A stretch of DNA of 64,000 nucleotides from Branchiostoma floridae (lineage: Eukaryota > Chordata > Leptocardii > Amphioxiformes > Branchiostomatidae): assembly GCF_000003815.2 (NCBI RefSeq), contig NC_049989.1:2832342-2896341 (forward strand). Reading direction: 5' to 3'. Every line of letters starts with the position of its first letter. Within the stretch, counting starts at the first letter, position 1. Below, one piece after another: positions 29,926-64,000 of the stretch. The notes beneath the pieces are model-generated. The model was not told the DNA's origin. It was given only the letters and a program-made list of their open reading frames with translations, and made no database searches. The translations under genes and the position numbers were made by a program.

Positions 29926-32900
29926 ATGTGCTGTCCCGAAGTCTATCTCACTCGGCCACCGCAACCGAAGGTGAAGAAGCCTGGACAACTGAACGACGAT
30001 CAACTCCGACAGTTTTTCGAGGAGGTCTGTATTTTGACTTCTGGTGTAAGGCGTCATTTGTGTTTGTCATGTCAACCCAGAAACCGTAAAATGCAACCCT
30101 TTCTTGTCTTTGTGGTATACTCTAAACTAAAAACCGTGACAAGAAACACCCTTAAACTTCTTAACGTGAACTTCATGTAAAGACCTGCCAAACGATCGAC
30201 ATAAAACACGCTCGGTGTATAAGTAAGATGTTTGTAGGCGTAGTGATACTCATTTGTGTTTGCTGGTTGCTTATTATCGCGGAGGACTTTGGAACTACAG
30301 TACATGTATTTGTGTAAGTAGGTGGGAGCGGTGTACTTAGATCAACAAGTCTACGGAAGAGAGCGACGTAAAAACCGTTATTTTGTCTGAATATGTGTGG
30401 TTGTACACGAGTATTTTTTCTATTGTTTTGTAGGGTTTTGTCCTAGTGAAAGACTTCTTGAAGCCAGAAGAACTCCAGCCCGTACAGGATGACATAGAGC
30501 GCCTTGTGGACGACCTGGCCGAGCGGCTGTTCAAAGCGGGCAAAATCAAAGGTTATTTGATAAAGCACAACACTGAGCACGCCCATGCGCCCAGTACATA
30601 CACCACTCCATATCTGCTTGGTGGATGTAGTATTTACCTATAAGTTATCGTTGAATAGATCTGTGAATTGATAGAAGAAGAAGAAAAACTTTATTGCGCG
30701 ACAATTATAACAGGTACAATGTATGACGAATATATGCAAGCACCAAACAAAGGTTGGTCCAACATTATGAAATCTAGTATTGATTCTTTTACTAATAAAT
30801 ATAGGTTACGCCTCTTTCTCGGCTCTGTCTTCGTATTGGCATGCTCTTTCCCCCCAAAATATTGAAGGTAAAGAAGGTAAACTGTAGCTCGAATTTGCGC
30901 AAATTAAATCCAAAACTAAATACAGCATGACTATGAGACAAATATGAAATCCTTATTTTCCAGATAAGCACAAAGATGCCGGTTTGTTTAAACGACTGAC
31001 ACTACTCGAAAAAGAATTTCCCGGAACTGCCGTCATCTTACACAAGACTGGGAAACTGCCGAAGGTATATACTATATACCTCAATTTTGTATACACTGGA
31101 TTCAATGACCTTCGACATATGTTCACAACTTTGAAACGGTTAATTCCACCTTTATGCTACAAGACTACTGCTATTTGATACATTCAAAGGCTCTCTTGTA
31201 GGGTTTCCGAGATCTTTGGTCCAATGAACGCCTTCTTAATGTGATGGAACAACTGGTCGGGCCTGAGGTCGCAGGAAACCCCGTCTGGAACCTCCGGACC
31301 AAAGTCAGTACATGTATACATACATACCGAAAACGACCGCGTATACGCACAATGAAAGGTGCAAAATAGCAAAATTTTGAAAATCAATGCAAGTTACATA
31401 TTGACAGAGTATGAAGTTCCTGTCATGTAGCACACTTGAACTATAGATTTACCTTACTAATTATGCAAAGACGTAATTCCACAATTAACATATTATTACA
31501 TGTATGTAATTGTAGGATTTCATCAAAGTTACCTTCAGGATCATGAATCTGCATTCATCCATTTTTGACTTATCCTGTTTCAAAGTTTGTAACTGAAACG
31601 CTCCCTGCAGTTCCGAAGAGAGCTAATTGAGGGCCCACACGACTATTATTCTACGCGCGACCACCAAAGCTATGTCTACCAACTAAATTTCTATCCTCTC
31701 ACGTCTGTATTTTGTTTCCTCAGACACCATACAACGAACAAACTGAGGTCCCATGGCATCAAGGTAAAACTTTTCAATTGTAGTCAACCACACTAACGCA
31801 TTTTTATTGTTATCGTTGCGCAGTGCATATCCAGATCTAGAATATAAAACACCTGTCAAGTCACTTCACCAAATTATAATTTCTTTCTTATCGGCTGTTA
31901 TTATATCTGTCATTTCTCTGCCGTAGTTAACTGTGACCTTGTTTATCGCTGCTGGACAAGATTAATCTTTGTACATATGACATACTTAATGTTTGGGACC
32001 GCATTGTTAGCAGCGACACCTAGCTGCAGTACGAAGTAGTACCAGTCAGTGTTGCCCCGAGGAAGGTGACAGACGGCCACTTAAACGTGTTGCTGTTGAG
32101 ATCACAGGATAAGAAGGGTCATATCATAATCATCAACATTGTTGATATCTTGGGTGTGATTATGATATGACTCTTCGTATCCTGTGATCTCTGAGGTGGC
32201 TCTCCATACCATCTTCGTTGCTATGGTTTCATTTTAAGTCAGTACCTGAACTAGCATGAGTACCATCCTCCGTGCGTAGTGGCACTTGCTCAATACTTTC
32301 GCTTGCTAACCACGGAGTCTGGACCTGCTCATATCCCTGGCGGTTCTTTAATGTAGATATTCGTTCAGATACTGTGCAGAGCTCCGTAGAAAGCGAAAGT
32401 ATTGAGCCAGCGGTCACTATGAAGGATGGTACTCAGGCTAGGTCATATAATTATCTTCCTTCCATGAACTTCCTTCCAACCACATTGACAGACAACGCCT
32501 ATTTTGACGAAGAGGCGTTGGGCACGCTGATCCCCACGGCCTGGATCCCCTTGCTGGACGCTACCGTACAGAACGGGTGTATGCAGATGGTGCGGGGCGG
32601 GCACCGGAAGGGTGTTCTAGCCACGCACGTGTGCTGTACGGGCGGCACGTGGTACGTAGAGATGGCCAAGGAAGAGATGGAACAGACTCTCGGTATGTTA
32701 GACATAGCATGGGATGTATAAAGGATATAGTGGAATAGTTTAGTGGTTTATTAATAGGCCAGCAAACCCTTTTTGATCAGCGTTAACCGACCAACCCCTC
32801 TGGTAAAAACAGCCACATTTATGGGGGCATTTCTACTCCTTTTATGGCATAGAATCTGGAGGAGACTAATTTCTACTATATTACCCCTGTGAGAACGGAG

Positions 32901-35900
32901 ATGTTGTTTCCTGCTTGTTTGCATGTCTTGATGTTTGTGCAGCTTTGTTACCGCTGGCCCTGGTCTAAGATTGGACCGGGTCGCGGAAAAGGCCTGCAGG
33001 ATGGGTACGCTGCTTTGGCCAACAGACTCCAAAGTTGGTGCTGCAGCACAGGCTTGGCTCGCAGGACAGCAGAAACATGCAAATAAAGAATTAGCAAGAA
33101 ATTAACAAAAACAAATATTTCACGGAGGTATGTGATCTTTATTCAGGTGCCCTGATTAAACATAAGTCTGCAAGAAATGTTTCATTGCAAAGTGAAGTTT
33201 GTCGTACTCACAGGGTGTGACCTGACCAAAGACGTGGTGACGTGTGAGATGACGTATGGCAGTGTGCTCCTCTTCAACAACCTCACTCCACACAGGGGGT
33301 GAGTATTATTTAGGACGTCATAGAAAACACGACAGCCAATTCGGAATCCATCACCGCGGCTGCCTTGTGCTTTAAATTTGTCACCGGGGCCGAATCCTCC
33401 TGTCCTCGTCCGACATTCGCAACCTTGTGACAAACGCTCTTTTGAGAAGCAAACATACATGATAACATCTGTGTGGTATTGTGTTTACTTTTCAAAAAAA
33501 CGTTTTTCCCCGAGACGCAGTGCCAGATTCAGAACAGACTGCCGTGTCCACACTTTGTTTACCTGGATGCAGGAATCAAGAGCTGGAAGTATGGTTTATA
33601 AGATTCAATGTTCAGTAACATGCACCAGAAGGCTTGTCCAAACGCCTATGTTCATTAAATGATGCTTGTTGTGATTATGAAAGAAGACGAAACTTTAACA
33701 TCTGCAGACTCAAACTTTATCATCTCAGGCCAGCGCGCGCGCAAAAAAAAAAACAAGTTGCACCAAAAATCCTACATATTTAAGTCTACAGACCATGAAC
33801 CTTGTAATCCAGTAAGAATTTTATTCCTGTATTCAACGCTACTCCCCCAGCCTCCCCAACATTTCTACCGATGTCCGCTGGAGTCTGGACCTGCGCTGGA
33901 TGGACCCCTGTAAGCCGGCCGGCCTGTGGGGCCTGAAGGACAGTCTGCCCATGCGCTCCGCCAAGAACCCGGACCTGGCCATAGACTGGGATAAGTTTGA
34001 GGCGGTGGATCGGAATAAACAGCAACAAAAGAGTGTGGTGAGTTTCGACATGTACATGTTTAAATGGTCACCTGTCATATAGGTCGTGCAATCGTCGTAC
34101 GACTTTGATGCCATATAATTTTCAAGCAGGCTGTGGCAGAACTAACCACCGACATGGATCCAAAACACTATTTTGTGTACCAAAATTGTTGAACTTTGCA
34201 GGAGACGTACATTTTGTTTTACAAAATGTCCCAAGTTAGCGATCATACGACGATCGCACGACCTCTGTGACCGCGCCCTTATACCCCTCTCACATTACGC
34301 GAAAATCGATCGGACGACGAGCTCTAAATTACGAGGAGGCATGACCCTAATGCCGACGAAGAAGTGTCAGAACCCCCCCCCCCCTTCCCGTCAGGGTCAT
34401 GCCTTCTCGCAATTAAGAGCTCGCAGACTCGTCGTCCGATCGATTTTTGGGTAATGTGAGGGGGTATAAGGGCCTGGCTTCATGCGTCGTACGATCATAA
34501 ACCAGGGACAGGCAGTTGTTCACGAATCTTGCAAAATCTAGCTGTCTTTTTGCCAAAAAGACATTTTGTTGGTGGTTGCAATTTGTTCTGCCTAAAAACT
34601 CTACGACAACAAAATTGTACGACGACGAATGTGACCGTACTGGTACTAGTATGTACTAGTATGTACTAGTACAATTATGACTCAGAAGACAACAAAATAC
34701 ACAAAATGTAAGAAAATTCGTTCTTTATCTCTGAAATTTGCTACGTAATTTTTCGAACCCCGCAGTGCCGCACCGGTGCCCCAAGTACAATGAGATACCA
34801 CCTTTTGCTCATTGAATCATAACGCAACAGCCCATTTAACACAGCACTGTATTAAAACGATTTTTAAACATCGATGTGCTTTTTTGTGAACACGTGGTCC
34901 CATCGTTTTCTTTCATAGTTTAAACATAATATTTTATGTTTTTCTAAAAACAGTGGGGACAAAGTTACAGACTTCCGGTCCACAAATCCTGGGTCATGAA
35001 CTCAAAATAGAGATCGGACGACGTTGAAGGAATACTAAAAGGACTAATTATACTACAAAGGGAAGAACGGAAGTAGTGGTATACGTATCTTAAAATCACG
35101 GCACAATCTTCAAATTTTAGAGAATATACCTTAACCCTTAGTAAAACATGCATTCATTTTGCATGGGGTTTATTTTTTTTTAGTAACATATAATTTTGAC
35201 ATTATTTGACTGAAGTCTTATACAAAGTGCTGAAGAAATATCAGTTTTGAATGATGTCGAGAGGAATATTTCCCTATGTGTGAAAACAAGTTAGGCTCCA
35301 CGGCAAACTGTCTATACCCACGTTTCCTCACAAAATCGTCCAGAACCCCGTCCAATGGTGCGGGGTCATGCCTTCCGGAGGTTTGCATGTAAGGCATCAA
35401 CTCCAAAGCAGCGCCTTTGGGGTACAAAATAGCTTGCGTGCAACAGTCGTTGGCCTCGATCATGAGGTAAAGATGCTTTGATATCCTTCTCAACTCCAGC
35501 AGATGTGGTCTGGAGATAGCCAGGGCCGCCAGAACACAGCAGACAACAGCAGCGATAAAGAACCTCCTGTCTAGCACGTAGGGTCGCTTGCACTTTTGAA
35601 CAAGCAGGACATGAAAAACGATAATCGCTGTTCCACCGACAATACCGAACCCTAGGAGTTCAAGTCCATTGATAATGATTCGTTCTGGTTTTGTCGTAAA
35701 GAAATCGCGCTGGTGATATTGCGGAGAAAAAAGTTTAATGATACTTTTTGTGGAGTCCCTTTTCATCAGTTCAAAACCGTGGTATTTATTTTGTAGCTTG
35801 GTCCGTATGACGTGGTCCAAGATGTCGAATGTTCCATGCGATGCCAAAGCGTCGTCTTCCATGATGAGGATGTACTCGGAGTTAAGAGCCAGGGTTTGGT

Positions 35901-38900
35901 TCAAACAGAAGACGTAGTCTTCCTTAAGTTTCTCATGTTCATTTGAAGAGGCCGGAGTTTTCTGCTTATTCTCCTGCTGGAGTTTTGACTGAACGGGCAC
36001 AAATCGTGACAGGAAGGCGGCGTCGGAATGAGAGAGGGGGTCGGGATCAACGTTACAAATCAGAACGCGAGTCGAGAAAGGTGGATTTTCTTGTAGAATC
36101 GCTGCTACCGTTTGAAGAAGATATCCAGGGTTATAGAAGCTTCCGTCTCGCGTCCGTAAACGCCTGTTCACAGTCAGGACCCCAATGGCTAACTTCACTT
36201 TGGTGTGTGTTTGTAGCGCAGCTTTCGTAGCCCCACCGTCCGTTTTTGAAGCGAAGAATGTTTTGGCCTGACTCCGGCGTTCGTTGTTAACTCTTCCCGA
36301 GTACGAGTTGGGGTTCTCCCCACCCATGTGGAGGTACTGGCTGTAGTAGACGGAGAAGTACATTCTGTGGCACAGGGCGGGTAAAATCACACAGAACACC
36401 AGGACGTACAGTTTCAAGATGGGCGGAATGGACACAGAGCGGGACATCCTGACTTGTCTAATCTTTTACACTGGCGAACCGCTTTCCACGAGATACTTCA
36501 GATGACGTTGCGAGGCAAAAAAATGATAGTATCTTAACCATAGCATTAGCGATGGTGGCGTCAAGACACCCACCCTTTTCATTCATGCGATGACATGAAC
36601 AGACAATGAAATGTATTTGTGCTTCTGTATAATGTCGTATTTCCGTCAATTGGAAGTTGTTATTTTCTTCCCGGGGTTACAGAACTCTATGCAATCTGCA
36701 ACATAGAAACATAAAATTTTCCTTTGAAAATTACATTAAGAAAGACAGTGAAGGAATATTACAACAACATTGTTTACACAAGAGACTGTACTCTGCGATG
36801 AATAGAACAAGTGAAGCGAAACAGGATGCTACTTATTTACGGTCAATTTACGCCCATAATCGCTCAGTTCAAAGGTAGCTACATGTAATATTCAACAAGG
36901 TTCAATTTGCCTAGGTTTGGAACTGTTTGGACCATATTACGGTGAGTTATCAACCCATGACATATGAAATCATTATATAGCTACCATGATGGCATAAAAG
37001 AGGGTCTTGAAACTTGCAAACATTGTACATTGGACAATATACTTGTAAGACCGCCCCATACCACCACTAAACATTTCCAATGCCATATTCCTATCATGTA
37101 GTTTTATATTGCACTATGCTTACCTGGGCAAAAGTTGGAGCAGCTTCAGGTGAAAATTGTGAAGAAAACACGTCGGACAACGGTGATATTTGGTGCGTTT
37201 GTTAGCTAGATATCCCAGTAAATAGTGTTGTACTGAAAAGCACCGCTCCCAGCAAGAATTATACCCTGTCCGATGACTTGTGACAACCTTGGGCAACGCC
37301 CTCTCTCCTTCTTGCGTTACAATCTAGAAATTCAGTACGACTTAATTCTTATTGTAGAATTCAGAATAGAGGGTTTGTGCGAAATGTGCCCATTGTTTGC
37401 TTGTGATTTCTTTAACAGCAAATTTGAAAGTCATAAGATACTTGAGTGTACATGTATATCCTTATGTCAAAGACGAGATGACCCTGTGTTCACGCGACTT
37501 CTACTTGCCCCAGGCAGTTTTCACAATGTCGTTCACAGTGATAATCAGGATGTGACGTTTCCTGCGTTTCCGGTTCTCCTACTGTTATCTAAGGGACTGT
37601 ACGATATTTATCAGGGGGGGAGGCCGAGATCTAAATCACACGCCTCTCGCTACAAATTGAACAGGCGCTAGCGCCTGATTGGTGGACCGGCGGGTGGCAA
37701 AGCTGGCTCTGATTGGCTTATTCTGGCACTTCGGGGTTACAATTATTCAGCCAAAATGGCCGCCGCTGGATGTTGTCGAGGACTGTGTTTTCCTGACTTT
37801 TGCGTAATTTCTCAGCGAAACAGTAGGTTTGTAAAGAGATTGTCAACATCTAATCCAAACATCATGCTCGATTTTATTACCACACAGATGTTACTGGCCG
37901 AAATTCTATGACGTTAGTGTAGTTTTGAAAAGTTAACGTTGCCGTGCATTGCGTTATTCTGCTCAAACGGCTTCGAGGTTTTTGTAGAGTTGTGGCTTAT
38001 AAAAAAAAATTATGACGATAACTGTTACCAAAATATTATGGACACGATGAAGTTCCACGAAACATATTGATGACACATTTGTAATAGCTTCATACCTTGA
38101 ATTTACTCATCGTTTATGTGAAGGAGGGACGGCACTTTTTTTCAATGTCGCTACATGTGATTAATTACGAAATCCCTCTTCAAGTTTTTAGTAGAACTGG
38201 AACCTTGATAAAAATGCATAAGTTAATCTTAGTCTTTACATCACGTTGTATAACCTCCTTGTTTACAACAGAATACACCATGATAATATGAACTGACTCA
38301 GTGTGCACTTGGGTCTATGAATTATTTGCCTTGCTGACCAACAGTTTTATGATGACATCTACCTTGGGAATAATTTGTGTGGTGCATGGTCAGAATGGTT
38401 GTACTTCACTTGTAGACATATAAAACATGACTTGGTTATGAGAAGAAAATGAAGACCTTTATTGCACAGTTTTGCCCAACCAAGCTAAGTACAGGTCACA
38501 ACAAGTCAAAACATGTGTATATATATATAAAGTTATGATAATAATAATAATATTGGTTGTATTATGTTATAATAATGATATCGGGTGTATTTTGCAGCCA
38601 GTAGGTACCCAAAGTGAAAATTTCACAGACCTAGTCTAACACAGAAGTTTGGCTTCTCGCTTCTTGGTAATGGTGAAAATGTAGGACTGTGGGTTTAGTT
38701 ATGGTCGGTTTGTCAAAATGCATGAGGAATATAAACTTGTCAGTGCTAACTCGTGTGTAAAAATACAACAGTGAAGTGCACTTCATCTTCTACCATGTTT
38801 GAAGTACAAAATTGGCAGACTCTTTGTTATAGAGGAGTACGGTTGTGCCTTCCTGATTCAATTTGCAGTTTGTGGCAACTGATTCTTACTTTAGCAATAA

Positions 38901-41900
38901 TGGTAATTCTGAGCCGATTGTTTGTAATTTTCAAATACTGCTCTTCATTGTATGAGGACTTGAGTAGTCTGTACGTTCGGAGTTTGGTTTTCGCACTTAG
39001 ACCTTTATTTTCATTATGAATGTTGGTTAGGAAATTCTGGAAATATATATCCTTCATACGCTGGTGAATTGCAGAAATTAAGTGGGATATGTTTGAATCT
39101 TTTGATTGAGGGGCTTGCCAAATTAAAGGGTAACCACACTTGAAGAGTTTGTTTTTAACTGATAATGGTGCGTCTGCTTTGTCTAATGATTGTCTAATTC
39201 CAAATAAAGCTTTCAATCCCTTGCTGTTAAGTATTTGCTGTTGACTTTGAATGTGCCCGCTGAGGATACAACAACAAGATTAACAATAAGATGCTACTGT
39301 TTCTAAATCATACAGAATGACCCAAAGTAAGTGTTAACAAAGTTACATAATGCAAGGTTTCAATTAGATAAGATCATGTGATAATAAGATAATACTATCT
39401 GCAGTTCTGGAAAAAACAAATTTCTTCAAATTTCAAATCATCCTTGTCAAAATTGTATCAAAGCATCTACTTGCATCTGCATTTCGAACTTGAAAATGTA
39501 TTCCTTACGNNNNNNNNNNNNNNNNNNNNNNNNNNNNNNNNNNNNNNNNNNNNNNNNNNNNNNNNNNNNNNNNNNNNNNNNNNNNNNNNNNNNNNNNNNN
39601 NNNNNNNNNGTGTGTGTAGAAACATGACTCGTAATAATTGACTTATAGTAAGAGACCAGTATAGACCTATGCTCTGTAGAACTGTACAAAATAAAACTGC
39701 CAGCTGATGTCTCACACTGAATAGCAACCCAGTATTGTCATTACTTCATATTCTGGGCTAAATATTCTTCAACAAGCTAATTTCTCTATGATGTGTAGTC
39801 TTACTTCAATTTCTTATCTGTTGCTCTTCATTGTATGAGGACTGAAGTAGTCTGTACGTTCGGAGTTTGGTTTTCGCACTTAGACCTTTATTTTCATTAT
39901 GAATGTTGGTTAGGAAATTCTGGAAATATATATCCTTCATACGCTGGTGAATTGCAGAAATTAAGTGGGATATGTTTGAATCTTTTGATTGAGGGGCTTG
40001 CCAAATTAAAGGGTAACCACACTTGAAGAGTTTGTTTTTAACTGATAATGGTGCGTCTGCTTTGTCTAATGATTGTCTAATTCCAAATAAAGCTTTCAAT
40101 CCCTTGCTGTTAAGTATTTGCTGTTGACTTTGAATGTGCCCGCTGAGGATACAACAACAAGATTAACAATAAGATGCTACTGTTTCTAAATCATTGTTAT
40201 CAAACAAAAAACAACAATCTTTCCATAATTGTCCTCCCTTTGTAAATACAATAACTTTTTCAGGTTAACCTTCAGCTTCCAGGATTTACAATATTGTTCT
40301 TTCATGTTGTACAGAACCGGAGAATTGTGATAAAAGTTATCAAATTCAGATACTATATCACTTATTAAACAGATTAAACAATGTAGAGTAGAGTTAAACA
40401 ATGTAGAATAGAGTAGAGCATATCATCCCTGTTTGTTTATATTGTGCTGTTTTGTTTTGTCAATGAGTAACTGTTGTTAAAATCAATAGCACCAGAAATC
40501 ATAAATTATCCACTGCATGACCATGTCAGAAGTTGAATACTTGTTGAGAAATATCATTTGTTGGCGAGTGAAACTTAAGTACTAGTACAGGTCTCTCTGC
40601 TGCAAGTTATACGCCAAAAATGCAGGTACTCCAGCAACTCTATATGATTTTGGAAATGATCAGATGCTACAAACACATTCTACATTGGAATGCTGACCAT
40701 GATAAGCCAGCTTTCTGATATATTTAATTTAGTGGTGTCTATCACTATTACTTTATTGTCTAATTTATGCCTTTATGGTTTCTGACATTACTTACAGATC
40801 TACAGTGAGTTCATTCCAAGACATACAGATTACTAGTACTTGATAACACCAGGTCAAAAAAGGTGGAAGGAAACTTCATGACTACAACAAGTGATGTGCA
40901 TGTGATAATGACCAGGTAGGGCATCCATATGTGATAGGGAACAGGTAGGGCATCCATACTATTGGGACCATGTAGTGCATCCATACTATTGGGACCAGTT
41001 AGGGCATCCTTGCAATAGGACATGAGGGCTCAAAATTCATTTTTGGGATTAGTTATTGGTTAACTAATTAAGTTACAGATGATAGTAACTAGGTAGGGCA
41101 CTGTATGGGTAATAGGGACAAGGTAGGGCACTTTATGGGTGTATAGTATAGGGAGAGGGTTTATATATAAGGGGACTTTATGGATGGAGCTGTGTAAGTT
41201 CTAACTAAACAAATTCTAGGTAGAGGTACACGGGTTTAGGTACAGGTCCAGACCTGACTTTCTTGTTCAAATAATGATTGATCTTTGATCACACCAAATG
41301 CATGTTCGAACTGATACCTAAGCGTGTTTAATTGTAGGATCTATAATTCCCCACCACCAATACCACCAGTAGGGATTACTAGTAGTAGTAGTTTATGGAA
41401 ACAAAGCCAAAAATCATCCACATGTTGCCAACAAGAAAATTTGATTGCATTTTCTTCCTGAATGCTAGCATGTTTACAAAATGTGAAAACTTCTGTCAGT
41501 TCCTTCGTGTTGGCTAAGTAATAGACAAGCAGTCCTTCTGTGTATACATGTGTTGTAGGTACAGTACTTGTATGCCAGGGTTCGGTTATTTTCGACCTGT
41601 TCCTTAATTGATTGTACTGGTACTGTATTGGTACAGTCTATAACGTTACGTATACCAGTACACAGCTCTATGTATGGGTGATAGGGACTAGTTAGGGCAT
41701 CTGTACATGATAGGGGCTAGGTAGAGCTTTTTATATAGGTGGTAGGTTCTGTTTTTGAGAAACTGCCTTTCTTTGATTGGTTATGCACTGTTCCATCAGT
41801 CTGGAACTCTAATGTTCTTGACTAATGCAACATTGCAAAAGGTGTCATTTCACCACAAAATTTCCCCAACAATGGAGACTGCCTTGCCGTGGCGTTGGGG

Positions 41901-44900
41901 CTTCACACCAACTGGAGTGTGACTAGATGTCTCCAAGAAGGCAAGTTTGTGATTGAATTATTTATCCCAGCAATATTCTGGTTTGTTAATATGTTAACTG
42001 TCATATTTCTACTAACAAATGGGTACATGTCTTTCATGTAGCTAAGGCTATAAAGGGGCTAAGTTTACTAGTACTTGAGAACAGTTTTCACAAATGCACA
42101 ACTGAAGGAAAAATAATCATGATCCATGGTCAGGCCTTTTATTGTAACATTATGGCAAGTATTGCAACACAGTAGATCTACCATAAACTCTTGAAGTGAT
42201 AAAATTAGTTACCTGAACACATTGCATCAATCATATCCTCCAAATAATCTGAAACTGTATTTTCATCCCTTATGTCATAATGTTCGAAGTTTTTGTAGGA
42301 GCTACTGGTACTGCCATTTAAAGTGATAGTCAACTAATAAGTGAATCCAAACACCTTGAAGCAATATGAAAATAGTTGTACTTTACATAGAGAAGACCAT
42401 TGGTTGTTGACAACAAGTCAGTTAATTAACATCAGTATACATACTAGTACATGTATACTAGAACATTAGGCACACAGAAGTTGTATCCAATTTGCAATTA
42501 GGGTTCAAGAGTTTACCATAACAAATCAGTGAATTGCAGTTTACCAATGATGGATCAAAACAAGTTGTAAGATTGAACAACAATTACATGTATGTCAATA
42601 TTTCACTAGACTATAATTTGTATTTCAAAACATGCTCTAGTCTACAGGTATAGTTGAATTGATGCAGCTGGATGCTGATTGTAGAAGTAATGACATTTCT
42701 TTCTGGTAAGCGGGCTCGAAAGTAAAGGTGTCCCAGTGGCCACAGATCATTAAACGTTTGGCAGGGATTGAGCTAATATAAGAAATACATTTTTAACAAC
42801 GGGCAACATCACCAATATCTTGGCCCTTCAAGCATGTCTGAACCACTATTCTACTTAAAAGTGGACATGATGTTGACTGAAGTATAATAATAACACAATC
42901 AGGTTGTCCATGCCTAAAGAAGGTACTAGTATCTCTCACTCAACTGTCATGATTAAAGACAGAACTTCAAAGTGATACATGTACAGGAGCCTGCATCGAG
43001 TTTTACAGGTAGGCGTTGTGAGCCCTCTCCTAAACCTTAAATCTATATCACACCAAGCAGGAAGGCGGTGCATTATGAAGTTGAATCTTGATAGTAGTAA
43101 GATATAACAACTTCTTTCACAAAACTAAAATTGTCTCCTGTAAACAGGAGGGTTTGGCATGCACTCTATCTGTACCAAAGAACTTGCTTATGATGCAGCT
43201 AGTACATAGAATGATTCTTAATGACAGAATTTACATAACAAAATAATATACATAGACCAGATAATACCAGTACAAATCCAGATAACATTAATTATCAAAT
43301 GTAGCATGTTACTGGCAGCCACATCAATGGAGGCCTGGCTAATACAGTTTAATAAGTACAAGTACAATGTTTGTAACAAAACCAGCACAGAAAAATTAAC
43401 ATCTTCTGTGACCAAGCTCTTTAAGACATCAGACTAAGTATATCTAAGCTACATAAGATATTGAGGTGTCACAGTTTTTGCAGGTTGTACTACCCTTGAC
43501 TATTTTCCCCTTCTTGGTGACGCCTACAAAAGTGTTTGTGTCACAGTTGTCACAGCGCACTCTCTTATACGATGCATTCTTGCCTGGAAGCCTTACACGT
43601 TTGTGCACCTGTTTTACTTTCATGCGTCTTGATGATGTTGCAGTAGGACCTGTCATATTGTCCGCTGAGGCAGCAGCACTTGCAGGTGTACTTGCCCTGG
43701 CCTTTCTTCTTCTAGCTGCCATGTTGCTCTGCTGTATAGACTTGACTAGTCGAGCTGCTGTTACCCGTTCGTCTTTCGTCTGTGGCTTTTGAAGTGTTGC
43801 TGTCATTGGTAGTTGCTGGAGGCATTGGTTTACAACTGTGGATGCCTGCTGACATTGGTATTCGGTCATCTGTGCTGTGTTTTCCTTCATTCCAGTTAAA
43901 ACAGACTCTAACTTTGTGATACCATCCATTAGTTTGCCCCTGCAGTCTTCTTGAGTCGTGTCAAGGTGGTCCTCTGCTAGCACAGCAGACATTTCAGACA
44001 GCTCACTTGAATTTGAAGTAGGAACAAATGTACTACTGGTATTGTACATCTCTGGAGGCATGATGCTGTTGATCAGACTGGGGTGGTACTGCTGAAGGAA
44101 CTTGGTTGCTGTTAATAAGTGCTTACATGTCTGTCCATTTGTGGCATTGTCCCTACATGTACAGAACTGTTCTGTAAGGCTCACACTGTGTGATACACCC
44201 TCCACACTCGTGCTCTTGACATGGAAGAGCAGCACGTTCTGGTTTACCATTGTTATCACTGAAGGGTCTTTCCTGTAGGCAGCCATGTACATATCTGCCA
44301 TGTCTTGGCGACCGCGCTCTGTTTTTGACAATGACTTCGTGTTGAAGCCCATGTCGGCTTCCTCTTGCTTTTTTACATGAAAGGCCACTGTGGTCTGGCC
44401 ACCCTGATACCTCTCGTCCCTAGGGTGTCCAATCAGCGCATCTAGGAGCGTATCTATACGGTGATTGGCGCGTCCAGTTAGAATGGTGTATTTGATCGTC
44501 ATCCATTCTCTCTCCGTCAGATTGGTGGTGTTCTGGTCTCCATGAGGGAACATCCTCCCAGCCCTGACCCACATGTGTCGCCAGTCATCCGAGTCCCAGC
44601 CACGTAGGTACTTCTTGATTGCTGGGTAGTCGTTAAACTCATCCTCCATTCGTTTACTTTCTTCTTCATACTTCTCCCATGTGCTGGCAAACATCATCGT
44701 GCAGAGCTGGTCATACACTTTTGCTGCCACGTCCGCTGGCAGCTTTGGCAGGAGGTTTTCCGTCCACGCCTTTTTGCAGTGGAACCAGCACAGGATTATC
44801 CTGCACTTTGTTTGTTTGGATTGTTCCCACGACAAAGCATCCTGGTCCACTGCGGCCTGTATCCCTCGTCTTTCTGTAAGAGATTTGTCTATAAGGATGG

Positions 44901-47900
44901 CGTTTGGTCGTGCTTGCACATTCTGAAAGACTGCAGAGAAGCCAACCTTGATCCCTGTCTCCTCCTGGTTTGTGTTCTTGTCTGCCGATGTGATGAGGAA
45001 GAACAGTGGAATTCCTTCTTTGTTTTGATTGGGAACTGTGGCTGTGAACAGTGGCAAACCATATGAGTTCAGTCCGAAAGTTGAGTCAACGCTCCAAGCG
45101 CTGTTCGGGGTAAAGCGCTCTGCCATTCTCCTCTGCCATTCTGTCTGTAGGACGGCGACAAATGGCCGTTTGTCGCTATCGGCGTTGTCTGGGTCATACT
45201 TCTGGAAGTAGATGCACTTTCCTTGGGACTTGTACTCATTGAGCTTGCTGTAAGTACTAAACCAGTCATCATCAGAGAGCCTATGCTTCCGTCTTCGCTG
45301 GTGCTGTAGCCTTGTTAGCTCTTTGCGTGTCATGACTGCCCTGTATCTGCTCTTGTCAATTTCCCCAATGCTACCAGAACTAACAACATTTTGTATAATG
45401 TTCACAGTTTGTTGAATGCGTAGGCCAGCGTCCAGGCAATCGTGAGCAATGTCCAGTACCCGACTGTCTACTGGAAGGAACTTGCTGTCTTCTGTTGACC
45501 CAGGCACATGGTTAGCGTGGACACTATGGAGACGTATCTCAAGCTTTATAGACATGTCTTCAGGCTCCATAACTTTCACGTGAAAAGTGCACCCAACCTT
45601 TTTACTTCTTCTGTTGCGCTTGCTCCCACGCTTGCGTGACGGAGCTCCATGTCTGTGACATGCGTACTCCCTGACCGTGCCACGACAGAGCATGCCATTT
45701 GCTCGCCTGAAGGTAACCTTACGCTTGGCTCTGATGAAAACCATCTGGCAGCTGAACTTGGCAGCCAGAGTAGCTATGTGTTCATCAGTGGTATCACGCT
45801 CTATTTCATACACCTGGTAGTCATTCTTGGTAACTTTTCTTTTGCGTTTTAGGGGACTTTGATTTTGACATGACGATACTCCAATTTGATGGAACAAGTT
45901 GAATTTTGGACCTTTGGACTCTGCCGTGGTCTCTGGACATGCAGGTTCTGGCTCTTGCGTGGACTCTGGACACACAGGTTCTGGCTCTCTCATGGACTCT
46001 TGACTCACAGGTTCTGGCTCTCCCGTGGTCTCTTGACACACAGGTTCTGGCTCTCCCGTGGTCTCTGGACACACAGGTTCTGGCTCTCCCATGGACTCTT
46101 GACACACAGGTTCTGGCTCTCCCGTGGACATTGGACACACAGGTTCTGGCTCTCCCGTGGACTCTGGACACACAGGTTCTGGCTCTCCCGTGGTCCCTGG
46201 ACACACAGGTTCTGGCTCTCCCGTGGACTCTGGACACACAGGTTCTGGCTCTCCCGTGGACTCTGGACACACAGGTTCTGGCTCTCCCGTGGACTCTGGA
46301 CACACAGGTTCTGGCTCTCCCATGGACTCTGGACACACAGGTTCTGGCTCTCCCGTGGACTCTGGACACACAGGTTCTGGCTCTCCCGTGGTCTCTGGAC
46401 ACACAGGTTCTGGCTCTCCCGTGGACTCTGGACACACAGGTTCTGGCTCTCCCGTGGACTCTTGACACACAGGTTCTGGCTCTCCCGTGGTCTCTGGACA
46501 CACAGGTTCTGGCTCTCCCGTGGTCTCTGGACACACAGGTTCTTGTGCCACTGTATTTTGGCACCCACACTCATCAAAGACCTTGCGAAACATGCTCTGT
46601 GGGATTCCAAAGCGCTTGCTATTCGTCTGGTATGTAGACACTATCTGAAAATGACGAAAATGAATGGAAATGTAAGATCTCTTTTTCTTCACAAGCAATG
46701 CATTTAGTTAGACAAAACAGGTATTTCCATATGGCAGTAAGTATTTGACAAAACAGACAATTCTAGTAACATATCATTCCGTACGGTAGTAAGTAACACC
46801 ATTAGTATCATAGTAGGTTTTTGTCCTTTACTAAGAAGGTTATGTTTTTGGTAGTGTTTGTATGTGTGTATGTGTGAGATATGAGGTCCAGGTGAGACCA
46901 GGTAAAGTACCTTACAGGTGAGATATGTATGGTTTCTTTGACTGAGGTCCAGGTGAGACCAGGTAAAGTACCTTACAGGTGAGATATGTATGGTTTCTTT
47001 GACTGAGGTCCAGGTGAGACCAGGTAACGTACCTTACAGGTGAAATATGTATGGTTTCTTTGACTGAGGTCCAGGTGAGACCAGGTAAAGTACCTTACAG
47101 GTGAAATATGTATGGTTTCTTTGACTGAGGTCCAGGTGAGACCAGGTAACGTACCTTACAGGTGAAATATGTATGGTTTCTTTGACTGAGGTCCAGGTGA
47201 GACCAGGTAACGTACCTTACAGGTGAAATATGTATGGTTTCTTTGACTGAGGTCCAGGTGAGACCAGGTAACGTACCTTACAGGTGAGATATGTATGGTT
47301 TCTTTGACTGAGGTCCAGGTGAGACCAGGTAACGTACCTTACAGGTGAAATATGTATGGTTTCTTTGACTGAGGTCCAGGTGAGACCAGGTAAAGTACCT
47401 TACAGGTGAAATATGTATGGTTTCTTTGACTGAGGTCCAGGTGAGACCAGGTAACGTACCTTACAGGTGAAATATGTATGGTTTCTTTGACTGAGGTCCA
47501 GGTGAGATCAGGTAACGTACCTTACAGGTGAAATATGTATGGTTTCTTTGACTGAGGTCCAGGTGAGACCAGGTAACGTACCTTACAGGTGAGATATGTA
47601 TGGTTTCTTTGACTGAGGTCCAGGTGAGACCAGGTAAAGTACCTTACAGGTGAGATATATGTGTTTTCTTTGACTAGTTGAGACCAGGTGAGATACCTTA
47701 AAGGTTGGAATGGATAGAAATGATTTTATATACATGTACCAGGGACCATGTGAGCATTAATGTTGAAGTCGTTTGTATAACTTTATTAATAAAACTATAT
47801 CACTAGAACAATGAATCCTGCATGGCACCGTTTTCAGACTCTGCTACAGGAGAGACGCGACCTTGGAAACAAAAATATTTCAGAGCTTGGAAGACGCATG

Positions 47901-54889: not shown

Positions 54890-55131
54890 TTTGCAACACC
54901 CCCTACTGACCTGGTGGAATGGGCCAATTGTTAAGTAACCATGCTTGTGATTGGTCAATACTAAGCGGCGATGTAAGCCCTCGCGTGATTGGCCTACTGT
55001 AGACAAACTATCTTGTCTCTCATTGGTTGCCACAGTGTTTCCATAGTGACAAGGGAAGCACAAGTTCTGTTGTTTTGTTGACAAGGTCAAGTTGCCCTGG
55101 TCATTCTACGCTTGGATTTCGCAGCGAGAAG
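54890..55131 (+). promoter_or_regulatory. CCAAT-rich promoter of the modular gene
   Basis: Four CCAAT/ATTGG boxes within about 110 bp: GGGCCAATTG (about 54917), GTGATTGGTCA (about 54949), GTGATTGGCCT (about 54985) and CTCATTGGTTG (about 55020). The start codon is about 110 bp further on. No TATA box is seen. Inferred promoter. Confidence 0.55.
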
Positions 55132-58100
55132 ATGTCAGAAGTTTACTGTGAGACTAAACAAGCGTCAGGAAGCTTTCATCCGATGTCAGAGATGCATCAA
55201 GTGTCCTATTTGACCTTGGTAAGTTGATAATAGGATGTGTTGTTGTGTAAAAGGTTTACGGATCAAGTTTTGTAAAAGAATTGGCTCAAAAGACGTGATC
55301 TATCAACAGTAGATCTCTTTGCGATCATACTCGTCAGGACTTGTGGACAATGGAGCCCAGCCCACTGAGTTGTCCCCTGTATACAACGAGCTTTACTTGT
55401 AAGCTGTGCGCGTTTGTATTGTGTCCCTTTCTTGAGTTGAATAATTTTTGTGTGAAGATAAAAAAAGCATAGTGTGTAAGAATGAAACTGTGAAAAAAGA
55501 GCCCCGCCCGACAAAACAACGACAAACATTACAGACTCGCCTCTCCTTCATTTCTGACGCTACATGACAGCTAAAACACCCGTGTCTTATTTCAGGACGG
55601 CAAGTACCACGTCTGTGGACAGGATGCTGTGTACTACACAGATGATAACGGTACAGAACGGTTTGTAGAGGGCGGGACAGTGGACCTGTGCCTGACAGAA
55701 GACGAGTGGGGTTGCGTCATGCCGATAGACGATGGGTACGGGCCGGATTTCATCTTGAAGAAATATCTCGAATGCCCCTGTGAATATTATGAAGAGATAG
55801 AACAAGATGTTCAAGAATGTGAGGAGACAATGTGCGTCCAAGATCACGACGACATAGAGGCGGGAAAGTGGAATTTCCCATGGTTTAGTGCTTGGAGCGT
55901 TGAAGAGTTCCTGGATGAGATGGAAAATCTCCAGAAACCAAAGGAGGTAAACAACATTGACAGCATCAAGGCAACCAGCCACACGTCTCAGAATGACGGA
56001 GAAGTGTCCAAGAAGTTTGAGAAGGATCAGCCCCACAACCAACCACATGTGGAGAGTCAGAGGATGTGGGAAGACGGCATGACTATCTACATGTCGGAGA
56101 GTGATCTGGATGAACAGCTTCTGGGACATGCAGAGGTAAACTGGCTGTGTTGTTTTTGTTTATTTCTTTTTCAATGGTTTTGTCAATGTCAGAGAGTGAT
56201 TTGGACAAACAACTGCAGTTTCTGGGGCATGATGAGGCAAACTGGCTGTCTCACTACAGTCTTGTTTCTTTTTCTTGTTTCTAATGTCCTTGTCAATGGT
56301 CTTAAATCTTTTGTTTGCTTGGTTTGTAAACTATAAATCTAAAAGTTCTAAACAATGTCATGGAGGGGATAAGCATTAAGGGGGCACACACCAGTTTATT
56401 TGGGGGTTCAAATGGAGGCGGCACACCCTCAAGTCTAGCGACCATCTCTTCCAGGGAATTATCCTGAAGGAAAATAACTGTATATGGGGTGAGAGGATAT
56501 ACCTTCAGCTACAAGACCAACTGAGTTTCGATCCTTCAACTTCTCTAATTTTGAAAAATTATAGGGAAAAAACATTATTTTCATGTCAAAAATGATGCAC
56601 AAAATCGGGCATTTTCGCATTGGATAAAACAGATGAAGAAGATTTTTCCGGCAAGCACGACTGATACTGCCAGAAAGAGGAAAATCTAAAGACTAATCCA
56701 GCCAATTATAAAGAAAATTCTAGTACTACAGTTTTTTTAATCATCCACGGCGCGCGGCATTGCAACTTTGCTTGACACAGCGCTTCAGAGGTAAATCTAG
56801 GTCACGGGCCTCTTTACATTCAGGCGTAGGGATATCGCGGAAGCAACGCGCGGACCAAAACACAATTTGCACCAAAAACACACCATTTCCTACGCTTTTC
56901 AGCCATGTAACCGTTTAATGTCATTTCGCAGGAAATAATGAGAAATGTCAACTCAAACTTGGGCCCTCGGAAGCCTTTCGTCACTTTTTGGTCGCGGACT
57001 ACCACGGACCCCGGTCGCGGAAGAACTGGGGTGTGCACCGTTAAGCTATGAGATACAAATGACTACAATGTATTCATCTTTACTTTAGGGTACATTGAGT
57101 CAGAACTTGTGGGAAGATGGCATGTCCATCTACATGTTGGAGAGTGATCTGGACAAACAACTGCAGCTTCTGGGGCACGATGAGGTAAACTGACTGTCCT
57201 GTTTCTTTTGATTGTTTCTAATGTCTTTTCAATGGTCTTTAAATCTTGTTTGTTTGGTTTATAAACACTAAATCTTAGAGTTTTAAACAGTATCATGGGG
57301 GGATATCAAAAGCATAGCTAAAAGATACAAATGACTACATTGTATTCATGTGATTACTTTAGGGTTCGTTGAGTCAGAACTTGTGTGAAGACGACATGTC
57401 CATCTACATGTCAGAGAGTGATGGTTGGACCAACTACACGTCGGAGAGTGATGGTTGGACCAACTACACGTCAGAGAGTGATGGTTGGACCATCTACACG
57501 TCAGAGAGTGATGGTTACACCATCTACACGTCAGAGAGTGATGGTTGGACCATCTACACGTCAGAGAGTGATCTGGATGAACAACTGCAGTTTCTAGGGC
57601 ATGATGAGGTAAACTGGCTGTCTTGTTTCTTGTGTTTGTTTCTGTTTGTTCTTGTCAATGGTGTTGTTTGTTTGGTTTATAAACACTAAATCTAAGAGTT
57701 CTAAACAGTATCATGGAGGGGATAAGCATAGCTATAAAATACAAGTGACAACATTTTGTATTCGTCCTTAGGGTTCCTTGAGTCAGAACTTGTGGGAAGA
57801 CGGCATGACTATCTACATGTGTGAGAGTGATCAGGACCAACAACTGCAGCTGTTAGGACAGACTGAGGTGGGTTGGCGGTCTTGTTCTTTTGTTTGATTT
57901 GATTAATAACACTGAATCTATGGGTTTTGAACAGTGTTATAATGGGATAAATATAGCTATAAGATACAAGTGACAACATTTTGTATTCATTGTTACTTCA
58001 GAGTTCATTGAGTGAGAACTTGTGGGAAGATGGCATGACCATCTACATGTTGGAGAGTGATCTTGACGAACAACTGCAGCTTCTGGGGCATGATGAGGTA

Positions 58101-59454
58101 AACTGACTGTCTTGTTTCTTAACTTAATTTCTAATGTCCTTGTCAATGTTTAGTCTTAAGAATGAGACTGACTTTTTTTGTGTACAATGTATTCATTGCA
58201 CATCCAAAGGTTGATAATAGCAGATGTGCAGAATTCAGCAGCATTTTTCTGAAGAATCAATAGACTAACAATTGTACAGCTGGAATAGCTTTAGTTCTTT
58301 GTATTACCTACGAATATAAATAGTAATAAATCTAAAAATTGACAATATTCTGTAATACGAGCAGTTGAGGCACTCACTATTTGATAAGCCAAGCCTATGT
58401 GATTCACAGTTCTGTACAGTCAAAACTGCCCAAGAAGACCAAAGAGATCTGGTCTATGTGTACAGGATTCTAAATTTTGTGTAAATGGAAATTTATTTTA
58501 AGGATCACCAGAAACTGGTCAGGTGGTCCTTACATGTATGTGAAGGTGGTCACTTGTACAACTACAAGTTCAACATTTGTTTATGGATAAATTTATGGAA
58601 GAGCAAAACGACATGTCTGATTAACTGGTACAATATCTTCCTGTAGGTTCCCATGCTGCATGTTAGGGAGAGCGAGAATGTCTATAGTCCAGTCATGAAG
58701 ACAGCTACCAGACTATCCAGATACGACCTACATCACGGGCCAGATCACATCGCTCACTCCCCAAGTCGTCCTCTGATTGGTAGCCGTGGTGACAGCAAGG
58801 AAAGGATTGTTTTGGATAGAGAGGATTGTTTGGTAAGTTTAAAGTTATTACACATCATAAGCCTGTCACACATAGCTGCCCTTCTCCCAGGTTGGAAGTC
58901 ATTGAGAAAGTTCATCTGTGGTTGGGAGTTGGTCGTGAAGGGGCCTATGATAGTTGACTGTAGATTTTGAAAAAAAGTTAAAAGTCTTAGTCTGCTTGGT
59001 TGTGATCAGAGGAGCTAACTGAACATAGAATATGCTGGATTTAGGGCTTCAGACAACTTTGATCACTTTCACCTAAAATAAGTTTAGCTTTTAGTTTTAG
59101 CTTGAAAGGGATATATATTACTATGCCATGCCAGCTGCATATCTAACCCACCACTATCTTGTCGTTTCTCAGGAAGCACCATTGCCTGTATACACCATAA
59201 CTGGTGCAAGGCACCAGAGAAAAGTTCACAAGGCAGACCCTCAGAGACGACTTCAGCAGGCAGCTATGTACAAGAGGCAGTCATTCAGTTTAAAGATATT
59301 TGATAAAGTTTGTTTCACCTACATCTGCTGCTCCTGTTGGCTTCTTCTCATGGGTTTACCAAGTCTTTTTACCCTTGTGATTGGGTTACAAAAGTTTGGT
59401 AAGTGTGTGGGAAAAAGCCAGCAGGGGCAGCAACGCTGGCAACCTCCCACATGA
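55132..59454 (+). CDS. Unrecognised acidic modular protein with C-terminal TM segment
   Basis: I do not recognise this family. Exons: 55132-55218, 55596-56135, 57089-57184, 57363-57608, 57772-57867, 58002-58097, 58647-58832, 59173-59454; 1629 nt, 542 aa. All introns are phase 0 and GT-AG. Exon 2 (180 codons) encodes an acidic, Cys-rich region (VCGQDAVYYTDDNGTERFVE, LCLTEDEWGCVMPIDDGYG, ECPCEYYEE) ending in one module copy. Exons 3, 5 and 6 are each exactly 32 codons and repeat the module (G/S)(T/S)LSQNLWEDGM.IYM.ESD.D.QLQLLG. Exon 4 is the same module expanded by repeats of SDGWTNYTSE. Exon 8 has basic residues, then a hydrophobic span ICCSCWLLLMGLPSLFTLVI, so a membrane-anchored protein with a long acidic part is likely, with no signal peptide at the start. 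An alternative donor at 59399 would change the last residues. Splicing is inferred; exon conservation makes the locus convincing. Confidence 0.7.
56180..56240 (+). pseudogene. Ghost copy of the 32-residue module in intron 2
   Basis: ATGTCAGAGAGTGATTTGGA and the sequence to TGGGGCATGATGAG match the second half of the module exons. The donor dinucleotide is GC instead of GT, and the acceptor half is missing. A decayed or partial exon duplication directly after exon 2. Confidence 0.7.
57415..57572 (+). repeat. 30-bp coding repeat in exon 4 of the modular gene
   Basis: Five near-identical 30-bp units (GAGAGTGATGGTTGGACCAA then CTACACGTCG or variant) encode SDGWTNYTSE-like decapeptides, derived from the IYMSESD stretch of the module. 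In-frame expansion. Confidence 0.9.
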
Positions 59455-60297
59455 CAGAGAACAGGTCCTACATCATCCGACTTGGCATTACAAGATGGAG
59501 GACATGTGTTCTGTTGTGTTGGAGGTTGTCATGGTAACTGACAACCAGACTATGGTTGCCAGGTAACCCAGTAGCTGCCCCTTTTTGCGTGCACCTATCA
59601 GTGTGAAGCTCAACAATTTGTCCACATGTTCTACATATCATCAACATACATAAATATCTTGGCTTCACACTGGTAGGTACACTAAAAATATTGTTCTGAC
59701 AGTTAGTCATTCTGTTTGTAGTAGAGCTTTCAGTATCTTTATATACACCCCATCCTACAAACTCCAACTTGAACAGCACACCCAATACTTTGTCAGGAGA
59801 GACATGCATTGTAAGAAATTTCCTTCTATTAATAGAATTGGCCATTGCATACCATATACAAATGAATGTAGAAAGAATAAAACAAAAATCCAAGGGTTGA
59901 CATAGTGGTAGAAAATGTTTAATGTCTCTCAGTTTGCCTAACAATGTTATACTATAAAATGACATGTTTTTTATGACCAGTGTATGAGAATCTCAGACTC
60001 TGTATACTTGACAGTCAAGATTAATAAATGTGAATGAATTTACTCAAGAGTTTATCTGCTGTCTTACACATATGAGTTTGTAATTAGTGTACCTGCTTTT
60101 GATTTAAAACAAGTAGCATGATGGATTTATGAATATATACAAAGTCATTCAATGAAAGAGGATATTCACTGGAATGGAAGGTCACTTTCACATAGATGCC
60201 TTTTCTACTTTGGAAGAAATTGGCAAAAGAAGGGGCACATGAAAGGAAATGGACAATGATAGGACTTTTGTTGCCCAGGTTCCACATTCGGTATCAG

Positions 60298-63200
60298 TCA
60301 TACGCCACAGTGTAGCTTCAAACTGTTGACTTGTTTCACCAGCTCACCGATCTTGTCACCCCTGAAACAAATAAACAAACAAACTTAAAGGAGATAAGAA
60401 AAACAGTCTATGGTCAAGCAGTGGCCTTCCTCTACATGACAGGATATAGAGGATACTAATTGTCACGTTGAAGTCTTGTGGTATGTGTCAATGTGAAATT
60501 CACATTAGATTCAGGGATACATCAACATATGACACTCATTCTTTTGTCACCCATAACTGAGGTGAAGTATGATGCTTCTTTCAAGTAGCCAGAGGTGCAA
60601 TGCCACTTTGCTACAGCTCATTTTTTTTTTTCACCAATTGTACTGAGCAACCCCTTCTCTTCTCGATAAGTGTGTTGGGTTCTTTTACGTGAAGAAGTTT
60701 GATGCCTGAGGCTAATGCTTGAATATCCATCATGCAGCAGCTGGCTTTATGCCACCTTCTGAAGTACCAAATGCCTCTAGTAGATTCATCTTCTCTTCTC
60801 TTAGTTGGAACTTAACTTTCCACACTAGGGGTATCTACCAGACTAAGTACAGATCATTCAGGTTCGGTTCAGGTCCAGGGAATTACAATGTAGGTCCAGG
60901 TCCTGACCTGAATCTGATTGTGAAGACATGTGAATGGGCGATACTCCCAAGAATGGTCCATTTTGCTATTAAAGAAACTGTTTGGTGGAATATCCACTGG
61001 CGTTTTCAAAACCTATATTCATGGAAACAATGCTAACTGTTACCTTAGACTAAGTTTGACTGCAGAAATATACATGTCACTATAAAATAGATACTATATG
61101 TTCTCTTGTTATTTTCTTGGATCGGTCGCACAAGAAAAAACGGTTTTATACCACCTCTATTCTACACCCAATACAAGCACGAGTATTGAAAGAATTGCAG
61201 AATGAGACTTACTCTTGCTTGAGCAGTTCTTTCATGTGTTTGCTCTGTGATTGGCTGAGAGCAGGGCTGGAGGACTGCCGAGCCTGCTGGGTAACCTGCC
61301 TTTTCTGGTAGTCCCACTTGGTTTTCACCTTGGAGAGAAAAAACAAATATACTATAAATATAAATATACTGTAAATGTATTCAAGTTTGTGGGGATCTAA
61401 GCAGAAAAATGAAGTATTCGTCGTGGTTTTAAGTTAACGGAAGTACCATATACTTAAGTCACATACTGTAGCTAAAAGGGAAAATGTTTGGGATGGTTTT
61501 GAGTTTGTGGTGAAGCCGCCACTGCGAAATCCCCGAACGTAAAACCACCACAAACATTTCTGCATTAAAGAATTCTGCATTGAAGAATGTACCCAAGACA
61601 ATGATATCCATTGTTATCACCACCGTATATAGTAAAGTAGATTCATCTATGTCGGTTTGAATACAGTTCCTAAACGGGGAACATGCGGCTCCAGCGTCTT
61701 TTCTGAAGATGTGGCGTAAGTGTGAACGGTTGGCTTGAGGTTGTCCTTCTCCACATACACATTGTTATCACCACCTGTTTGACTGTACCCACCTGTTGTG
61801 TGGAGTTCTTCAGGTGCTTCAGTTTCTCCTGCAGGGACTCCAGCTCCTTCTTCATACTGACCTCAGCATCAGACAGCACAGGGAGCCGGGCTTGCAGATT
61901 CTTCAAAACATTCTCCACTCTGAACATCAAAACAAAACAAGAGATTGAAAATCTAATGAGATGTTTGAGTTTTTTGTATGTCTTGCTTAATTGTAGTTCA
62001 TAAATCATGAAAAGACGGTTTTCATTAATATTGCTTATTGCCTGTGTCCATTGATCACTTTCTGTCACTTAATAGTATGACAAGCATATGAAAATACATA
62101 CACAGAAATGCAAAACAATACTTCCCCTGTGAATTAGTAGGCTCAACCATTGACCCCATGACCTGGAATGTCTGTTAGGAATAATAAATAACTAATTCTA
62201 CCAACACTGAACTCTACTACCTGTAACCCACAACACTGACTTTTTTGTCCTTCATACTTCCTTCCAAACTGTGGTGCAAAGTGCCTGTACCAGCATATTG
62301 CATTAACACACTGAAAGCAATACTTCCAAATACTGAGGCAAAAATTTTATTGCTTTTTAAGTTTGCCATTTAACATAGTATCAGATGCATCTAATACAAT
62401 GTTAAATGGCAAAAATATGCCAGAATAAGGAAAGGTCCCAAAACACACCAGTCACATGACACTACAAAAATACAAACAAACCTTCTTAAATACTCCTGTT
62501 GCTTCTCATTGGCTTCTTCATATTTCTCGGCGAGTTTCTCAGCTGTCTCAGTCAGACTCTTCCTGTCCTCCCGTAGTGTGTGAAGGTCTGTTTGCTGCTG
62601 GGCTTTCTGTTCCTTCAGTAAGTCCACTCTGTAGAAACATAGATGGAAAGTGGACATAACTTATGACTGTGTACTGCTACAGGATAGTCTTACTGGGTTA
62701 CTGGTAACAATGTTTCTCAAGGTACATGTACAAGCCAGGGAGACTTATAAGTTAGAATAATCTATGATTAATTTTTGCTTACCAAAGTGGCTCATGTATT
62801 GAGTGCAGTTACATATAACATGCACCTTTAATAGTCTGTACACATTGTTTTCTTGTTTATGTAGCCTAACTGTTGTGGAAACTCTCATAACACATTCCTT
62901 GCACCCTGATTTGAGTCTGTTGTTAACAAACTTAAAATGGGATCTCTCTCAGCTCAATACAATTGTCAAAACAACCAGATTGCAATCTCCACCCTGGTGT
63001 ACACATGTATGTTTGTACAAGTATGTTCTATACATGTATGTGCCAACTGTAAACCCCTATTTTTTAACCTTGTGTGATCTTCACACAATACCCCGATAAA
63101 AAAACCCAGTGAGTACCCCTACCTCTTCTCCACCTCTTCCCTGGCCTGGTACTGTTTCTTGATATACTCGTCCCTGAACACCTGGGTCGCTCGGGTCAGT

Positions 63201-63920
63201 AGCTGGAAACATTCCTGGTCAGACGGCTGCGAACCCTTTGGGATGGACCTTAAGAACAAAAACATTTGTTTCTCAAGCGCACTGAGGCTAATATGAAGAA
63301 AATATCATACAAGTTACCAGCAGACAAATGTAAAAAGTCAATACATGTACATTAGTCCACAGTAAGGAAACATACTTGAATTAGCCTAAATGCTACCACA
63401 CTCTCTACATCTGGAATGTTTGAGACACAAAATGTAGAACAAGGAGAACTTAACAACAGATTTTTCCATTTTAGGTCTTTCCTTGTAAGGTTGTGCACCA
63501 GAGATGAACAAAACTTCCTCCTATGTTTTTCCTTGGAAATCAGGTGAAAATCAATACACATGCTGATGTCATCCATAAAATTTACTTACTTTGACTTATC
63601 ACATAAAAAGACACCATCTAGACAACCAACATGTTAAATCATGATGACAATGACAATGACGTTTATTGCATGTTCAAGCCCAAATAGGGCTAAATGCAAA
63701 TGATATAAATTTAATAACAACATGTCGACAATGATATGTCATAAAAGGCAAAGGTGTCTACAGAAAGTCTTACTTGAGGATAGGATTGGATGCATCTCTT
63801 CTCAAGATATCTCTGATGTGTTGGTCAAATGGCTTGGAGTGGAGCTTCCTCAGAGGGGAGGTGACTGGTTGGGAGGGTAAGGAGGAGAGTGTGGGGGGAG
63901 GGGGGTTGGCATAGTGTGTC
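60298..63920 (-). CDS. NUP88: Nucleoporin 88, C-terminal part (5' exons outside window)
   Basis: A cytoplasmic-face nuclear pore protein that partners NUP214 and CRM1-dependent export. Visible exons in transcript order: 63920-63774, 63248-63123, 62628-62482, 61919-61793, 61328-61213, 60361-60298; all GT-AG and in phase, ending NSLKLHCGV-stop. It matches the human NUP88 C-terminus: KPFDQHIRDILRRDASNP, then ECFQLLTRATQVFRDEYIKK, KEQKAQQQTDLHTLREDRKS, AEKLAEKYEEANEKQQEYL, LPVLSDAEVSMKKELE and KELLKQEGDKIGELVKQVN. The heptad-rich, Gln/Glu/Lys-rich composition is the coiled coil that docks NUP214/NUP62. A Pro-rich linker (YANPPPPTLSSLPS) precedes it. The N-terminal beta-propeller lies beyond position 64000. 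Confidence 0.92.
61369..61566. mobile_element. Diverged relative of the 25338 MITE
   Basis: TACTGTAAATGTATTCAAGT at the left and CACAAACATTTCTGCATTAA at the right, with GTTTTGAGTTTGTGGTGAAG inside, follow the layout of 25338-25534. In a NUP88 intron. Confidence 0.55.
63639..63706 (-). mobile_element. LINE 3'-tail remnant
   Basis: Read on the minus strand, GCAATAAACGTCATTGTCAT with short ATTGTC/ATGTC repeats is the usual look of a LINE 3' end (AATAAA plus microsatellite). A similar tail, CGCAATAAAGTTTTTCTTCT, lies at about 30700-30680. Weak evidence from pattern only. Confidence 0.4.
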
Positions 63921-64000
63921 CTGGTAAAAGGGGAATCAAGGGGCAAACAATTTAGTAAGATTGAAATCCAACGAACTTTAATACATTAACATACAACATT

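Follow-up and report, generated by a model that had tools for sequence, protein, structure and literature searches.

The repetitive PEVK region of titin grows and shrinks by the duplication and loss of exons, as the part of PMC6469411 that deals with this region describes, and collagen evolved via exon duplication, which a passage of PMC4838654 ties to runs of symmetric exons. A figure of about 10% of animal genes with tandemly duplicated exons is quoted in PMC9013439. Here we analyze an exon array in a 64,000-nt stretch of the genome of the amphioxus Branchiostoma floridae (NC_049989.1, positions 2,832,342 to 2,896,341), which is called the window in the following. The array resembles titin PEVK in that a repetitive region changes through exon duplication (PMC6469411), the fibrillar collagens in that exon duplication coincides with symmetric exons (PMC4838654), and genes with tandemly duplicated exons in that homologous exons lie next to one another in one gene (PMC9013439). 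However, titin is a giant muscle protein (PMC6469411), and the amphioxus gene is set apart from the genes with tandemly duplicated exons by having a module in each of five exons and, in addition, an array of decapeptides within one exon. The Gly-X-Y sequence of the fibrillar collagens is absent from the amphioxus protein. The exons of fibrillar collagens are of phase 0 and built on a 54-nt unit, and titin is not known to be tail-anchored. The mode of origin by exon copying is already well known.

Predicted gene structure

The gene is predicted on the + strand from 55132 to 59454, where eight exons bounded by GT-AG encode a protein of 542 residues, followed by TGA. Exon 1 (55132..55218) comprises the start codon, an ATG with an A at -3, and in total 29 codons, and it ends at the donor GTAAGT. 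Exon 2 (55596..56135) has 180 codons, which encode an acidic, cysteine-bearing region, a linker, and, at the 3' end, the first module. Modules are also encoded by exons 3 to 6, while exon 7 (58647..58832, 62 codons) is without one. Exon 8 (59173..59454) encodes a basic segment, a single predicted transmembrane helix and a short tail that ends with TGA. The first two AATAAA/ATTAAA strings 3' of the stop codon are found at 59876 and 60023.

All exon lengths are divisible by three, GT follows exons 1-7 and AG precedes exons 2-8; therefore, all seven introns are of phase 0, as the original prediction had stated for the introns that flank the modules. Each of the seven introns, if retained, would add an in-frame stop. 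As far as can be judged from the DNA, the eight-exon structure appears to be a sound gene model of textbook construction. That it is partly wrong, because at least one exon is unused or because the gene is a pseudogene, is unlikely: the core of exon 4 has lost its W and G, which would fit such an explanation, but a succession of eight open exons that share one phase and have GT-AG sites argues against it.

Two further sites were noted along the gene. A donor-like G|GTAAGT lies at 59399 in exon 8, just past the transmembrane segment and in phase 1, and could give an alternative tail. An RFX-type X-box at 55037 in the promoter was dismissed as not special, because the window contains 34 such sites versus a mean of 30 in shuffled sequences, 25 of 100 of which reached 34.

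Module copies and splicing

Three exons of exactly 96 nt encode the same module, in agreement with the original prediction, namely exon 3 (57089..57184), exon 5 (57772..57867), which has the donor GTGGGT, and exon 6 (58002..58097). The end of exon 2 also proved to be a copy of the module, with 69-76% amino-acid identity to the three 96-nt modules, and it is two residues shorter than these. When the exon 6 module was used in tblastn searches, it matched exon 3 with 87% identity (E 1.7e-16), exon 5 with 81% identity (E 4.7e-14) and the end of exon 2 with 76% identity and two residues missing (E 6.4e-11). The likeness among the copies, with E values down to 1.7e-16, is beyond chance.

Exon 4 (57363..57608, 246 nt) had been described as an expanded version of the module. 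The expansion was verified, and its content had to be corrected: the module is interrupted by an amplified core, and the exon contains one altered WEDGM-type core and five decapeptide cores. The latter are encoded by a tandem array with a 30-nt period (57400..57572, 5.8 copies, 93% matches), which repeats the module core DG-x-T-x-Y-x-SES five times. The whole array of modules comprises five plus five cores. A half module is located in intron 2 (56188..56236), where 45 of 49 bases are identical to the end of exon 4. It is followed by GCAAAC, whereas GTAAAC follows exons 2, 3, 4 and 6.

Stretches consisting of AG, 96 open nucleotides and GT are found 128 times on the two strands of the window (55 + 73). 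A rule requiring a pyrimidine tract and a donor retains seven of them, six on the + strand and one on the - strand, and exons 3, 5 and 6 make up three of the seven; the rule is a rough guide, since it was drawn up after the exons had been seen and lets the GTGG donor of exon 5 pass. A fourth stretch passing the rule, at 56100, overlaps the end of exon 2 and the half module.

All 16 possible subsets of exons 3-6 remain in frame, so that free skipping of these exons would be possible. Isoforms with two to six modules had been predicted; provided that exon 2 is never left out, skipping of exons 3-6 would instead yield between one and five exons with a module. The in-frame subsets would also be compatible with mutually exclusive splicing, in which one of the duplicated exons is chosen at a time and each protein carries few modules. 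We regard this as unlikely, because introns of 134-178 nt suffice in length for ordinary splicing, and because none of the five acceptors examined shows unusual local RNA folding (z between -0.36 and 2.74), although the latter is weak evidence.

Duplication of exons with their introns

The repeats do not end at the exon borders, but extend into the introns. Compared pairwise, the introns that follow exons 3, 4 and 5 share 69-85% identity and show two to four gap runs per pair. In the corresponding exon pairs, identity is 82-88% and gaps are absent, when exon 4 is taken without its array. The exon identity exceeded the intron identity in all three whole-intron pairs. The introns were copied along with the exons, which is direct evidence for the exon multiplication that had been proposed, and from which it follows that the array expanded as units of one exon plus one intron were duplicated in tandem. 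Three features by which tandem exon duplication is recognized, namely adjacent homologous exons, symmetric phases and copied flanking intron sequence, are found at this locus. At the level of DNA, these comparisons show that a 96-nt exon has been tandemly duplicated together with its intron, and that its 10-residue core has been amplified further inside one copy, exon 4. The half module, the 30-nt array and the copied units are, judged by their sequences, marks of gain and decay, and the half copy in intron 2 is probably dead.

It is quite possible, albeit on balance somewhat improbable, that the array stems from instability of the DNA at this place, through unequal crossing-over and slippage, and that additional copies are tolerated because they are in phase and have no function of their own. 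Such an origin would fit a locus at which exon copies, introns and the 30-nt array all look repeatedly duplicated, and at which a probably dead half copy adjoins the array. It would also fit the similarity of some intron flanks to each other, which is as high as that of the exons: upstream of exons 3 and 4, 39 of 43 bases match (91% versus 87.5% in the exons), and upstream of exons 5 and 6, 48 of 55 bases match (87% versus 82%). The flanks of exons 3 and 6 behave differently, with 42 of 58 and 41 of 60 matching bases (72% and 68%) versus 93% in the exons. Furthermore, a shortage of amino-acid changes, as would be expected under selection, was not significant in any of six module pairs in a neutral simulation (P 0.096, 0.117, 0.123, 0.137, 0.205 and 0.656; the six simulated pairs are not independent).

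On the other hand, several observations speak against functionless copies. Exons 3-6 are free of stop codons, while a stop arose in 28-64% of simulated copies with the observed number of changes. The lack of gaps in exons 3, 5 and 6 and in exon 4 minus its array, versus the gap runs in every intron pair, points in the same direction. In addition, all six module pairs have a dN smaller than their dS (dN 0.07-0.15, dS 0.12-0.67), values that rest on few changes and on non-independent pairs. Taken together, the indication of selection on the modules is weak, and some of the evidence runs counter to it.

C-terminal hydrophobic segment

The original prediction that the protein seems tail-anchored was supported. 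Residues 501-519 are strongly hydrophobic, with a mean of 2.03 compared to a best value of 0.46 elsewhere in the predicted protein, and 21-23 residues lie C-terminal to them, the number varying with the point at which the helix is taken to end. For exon 8 alone, one helix was predicted at exon residues 40-81 (pLDDT 71-85 in the block 41-80, 63 overall). A 15-residue hydrophobic stretch is absent near the N-terminus of the protein as predicted by the model with its present 5' end (hydropathy). The single transmembrane segment near the C-terminus that characterizes tail-anchored proteins is therefore found by hydropathy and by single-sequence helix prediction, and a C-terminal membrane anchor is supported for the predicted protein.

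The 35 residues before the hydrophobic stretch include ten basic and two acidic residues, the 21 residues after it four basic and no acidic residues. According to the positive-inside rule, such a charge bias favors a cytosolic N-terminus. The 178 residues encoded by exons 3-6 include 41 acidic residues and one basic residue, and seven cysteines are present among the first 115 residues of exon 2. Structure prediction, which had been proposed as a check, was useless for exon 2 (AlphaFold with a single sequence, mean pLDDT 39). A dileucine sorting motif, sought by eye, was dropped, because it is not common to the copies.

Similarity searches

Searches of Pfam with the complete spliced protein, with two of its parts and with four pieces from the gene retrieved no family at the cut-off. 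The best Pfam match was DUF1764 (PF08576), with 17.3 bits versus a cut-off of 27 and an E value of 0.0087. The linker of exon 2 together with the module reached 16.9 bits, the linker alone gave no match to DUF1764, and neither did the other modules when they were searched alone. Because of this failure of the other modules, and because unrelated families score about equally, the sub-threshold match to DUF1764 is taken as a likely chance match, and membership in this family is not supported. Three matches up to E 1 were found among the PDB sequences, the best with an E value of 0.29. The statement that the cysteine-rich N-terminal region is unlike any family holds for Pfam and PDB sequences, the two collections against which it was verified.

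A search of the whole window against Rfam at gathering scores gave zero matches, and no match was found among viral contigs, as is expected for an animal gene. WEDGM at the start of a word and three longer module strings were absent from the literature searched, and among the papers retrieved for amphioxus in combination with tandem exon duplication, no title concerned this gene.

Several other open frames are present in the window. The C-terminal part of a NUP88-like gene is located tail to tail with the module gene (61209-63985, - strand); its open frames match two Nup88A chains (best E 7.4e-50) and one Nup88 chain (E 9.3e-46), which we take to be frog and human proteins. A piece near 18.3 kb matches methionyl-tRNA synthetase above the Pfam cut-off, while a second neighboring piece retrieved nothing in Pfam. 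A fragment on the + strand (32260-32721) matches phytanoyl-CoA dioxygenase (PhyH) with 27.4 bits versus a cut-off of 22. On the - strand, a frame of 415 codons (35218-36465) has no Pfam match at E 0.01 and is, we assume, reminiscent of PGAP4/TMEM246. Two near-identical open frames on the same strand (38827-39279 and 39806-40162), the starts of which are 883 bases apart, probably represent a repeated element; the first has no Pfam match at E 0.01. A frame of 1087 codons (43444-46707, - strand) has weak matches to ZSWIM1-3, MULE and SWIM, all three below the cut-off, and a run of 19 EPVCPE-type repeats in its N-terminal part.

Discussion

With somewhat less than even confidence, we propose that the gene encodes a cytosol-facing, tail-anchored, multivalent scaffold with repeated acidic docking peptides, the array of which arose by duplication of exon units. 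The protein would be inserted post-translationally via its C-terminal helix, and its long N-terminal part would face the cytosol. The repeated acidic-aromatic cores, of the type DG-x-[ST]-[IN]-Y-x-x-ES, might provide peptides to which a partner docks with low affinity, with the number of copies, and possibly also exon skipping, setting the valency. Owing to the phase-0 introns, copies could be gained or lost without a break of the frame. It had been suggested before that the modules could be binding sites, and this is conceivable. Features that count against the scaffold are the missing two residues of the module in exon 2, the altered core of exon 4, the lack of a significant simulation result, those intron flanks that are as alike as the exons, and the donor-like site at 59399, owing to which the tail may differ from the one predicted.

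A more far-reaching version of the scaffold proposal would be a hitherto undescribed and lineage-restricted family of tail-anchored scaffolds, in which the number of exons and the decapeptide array within an exon tune the number of nearly identical docking peptides, and in which splicing grades the valency. This version we consider improbable.

If the modules are not used, the locus would be an ordinary instance of exons duplicated in tandem, in a gene of which little is known. If they are used, it would represent a compact natural example of a binding peptide that has been multiplied at two scales, both inside a single exon and through the copying of entire exons, and one gene would harbor complete, expanded and decayed copies next to one another.
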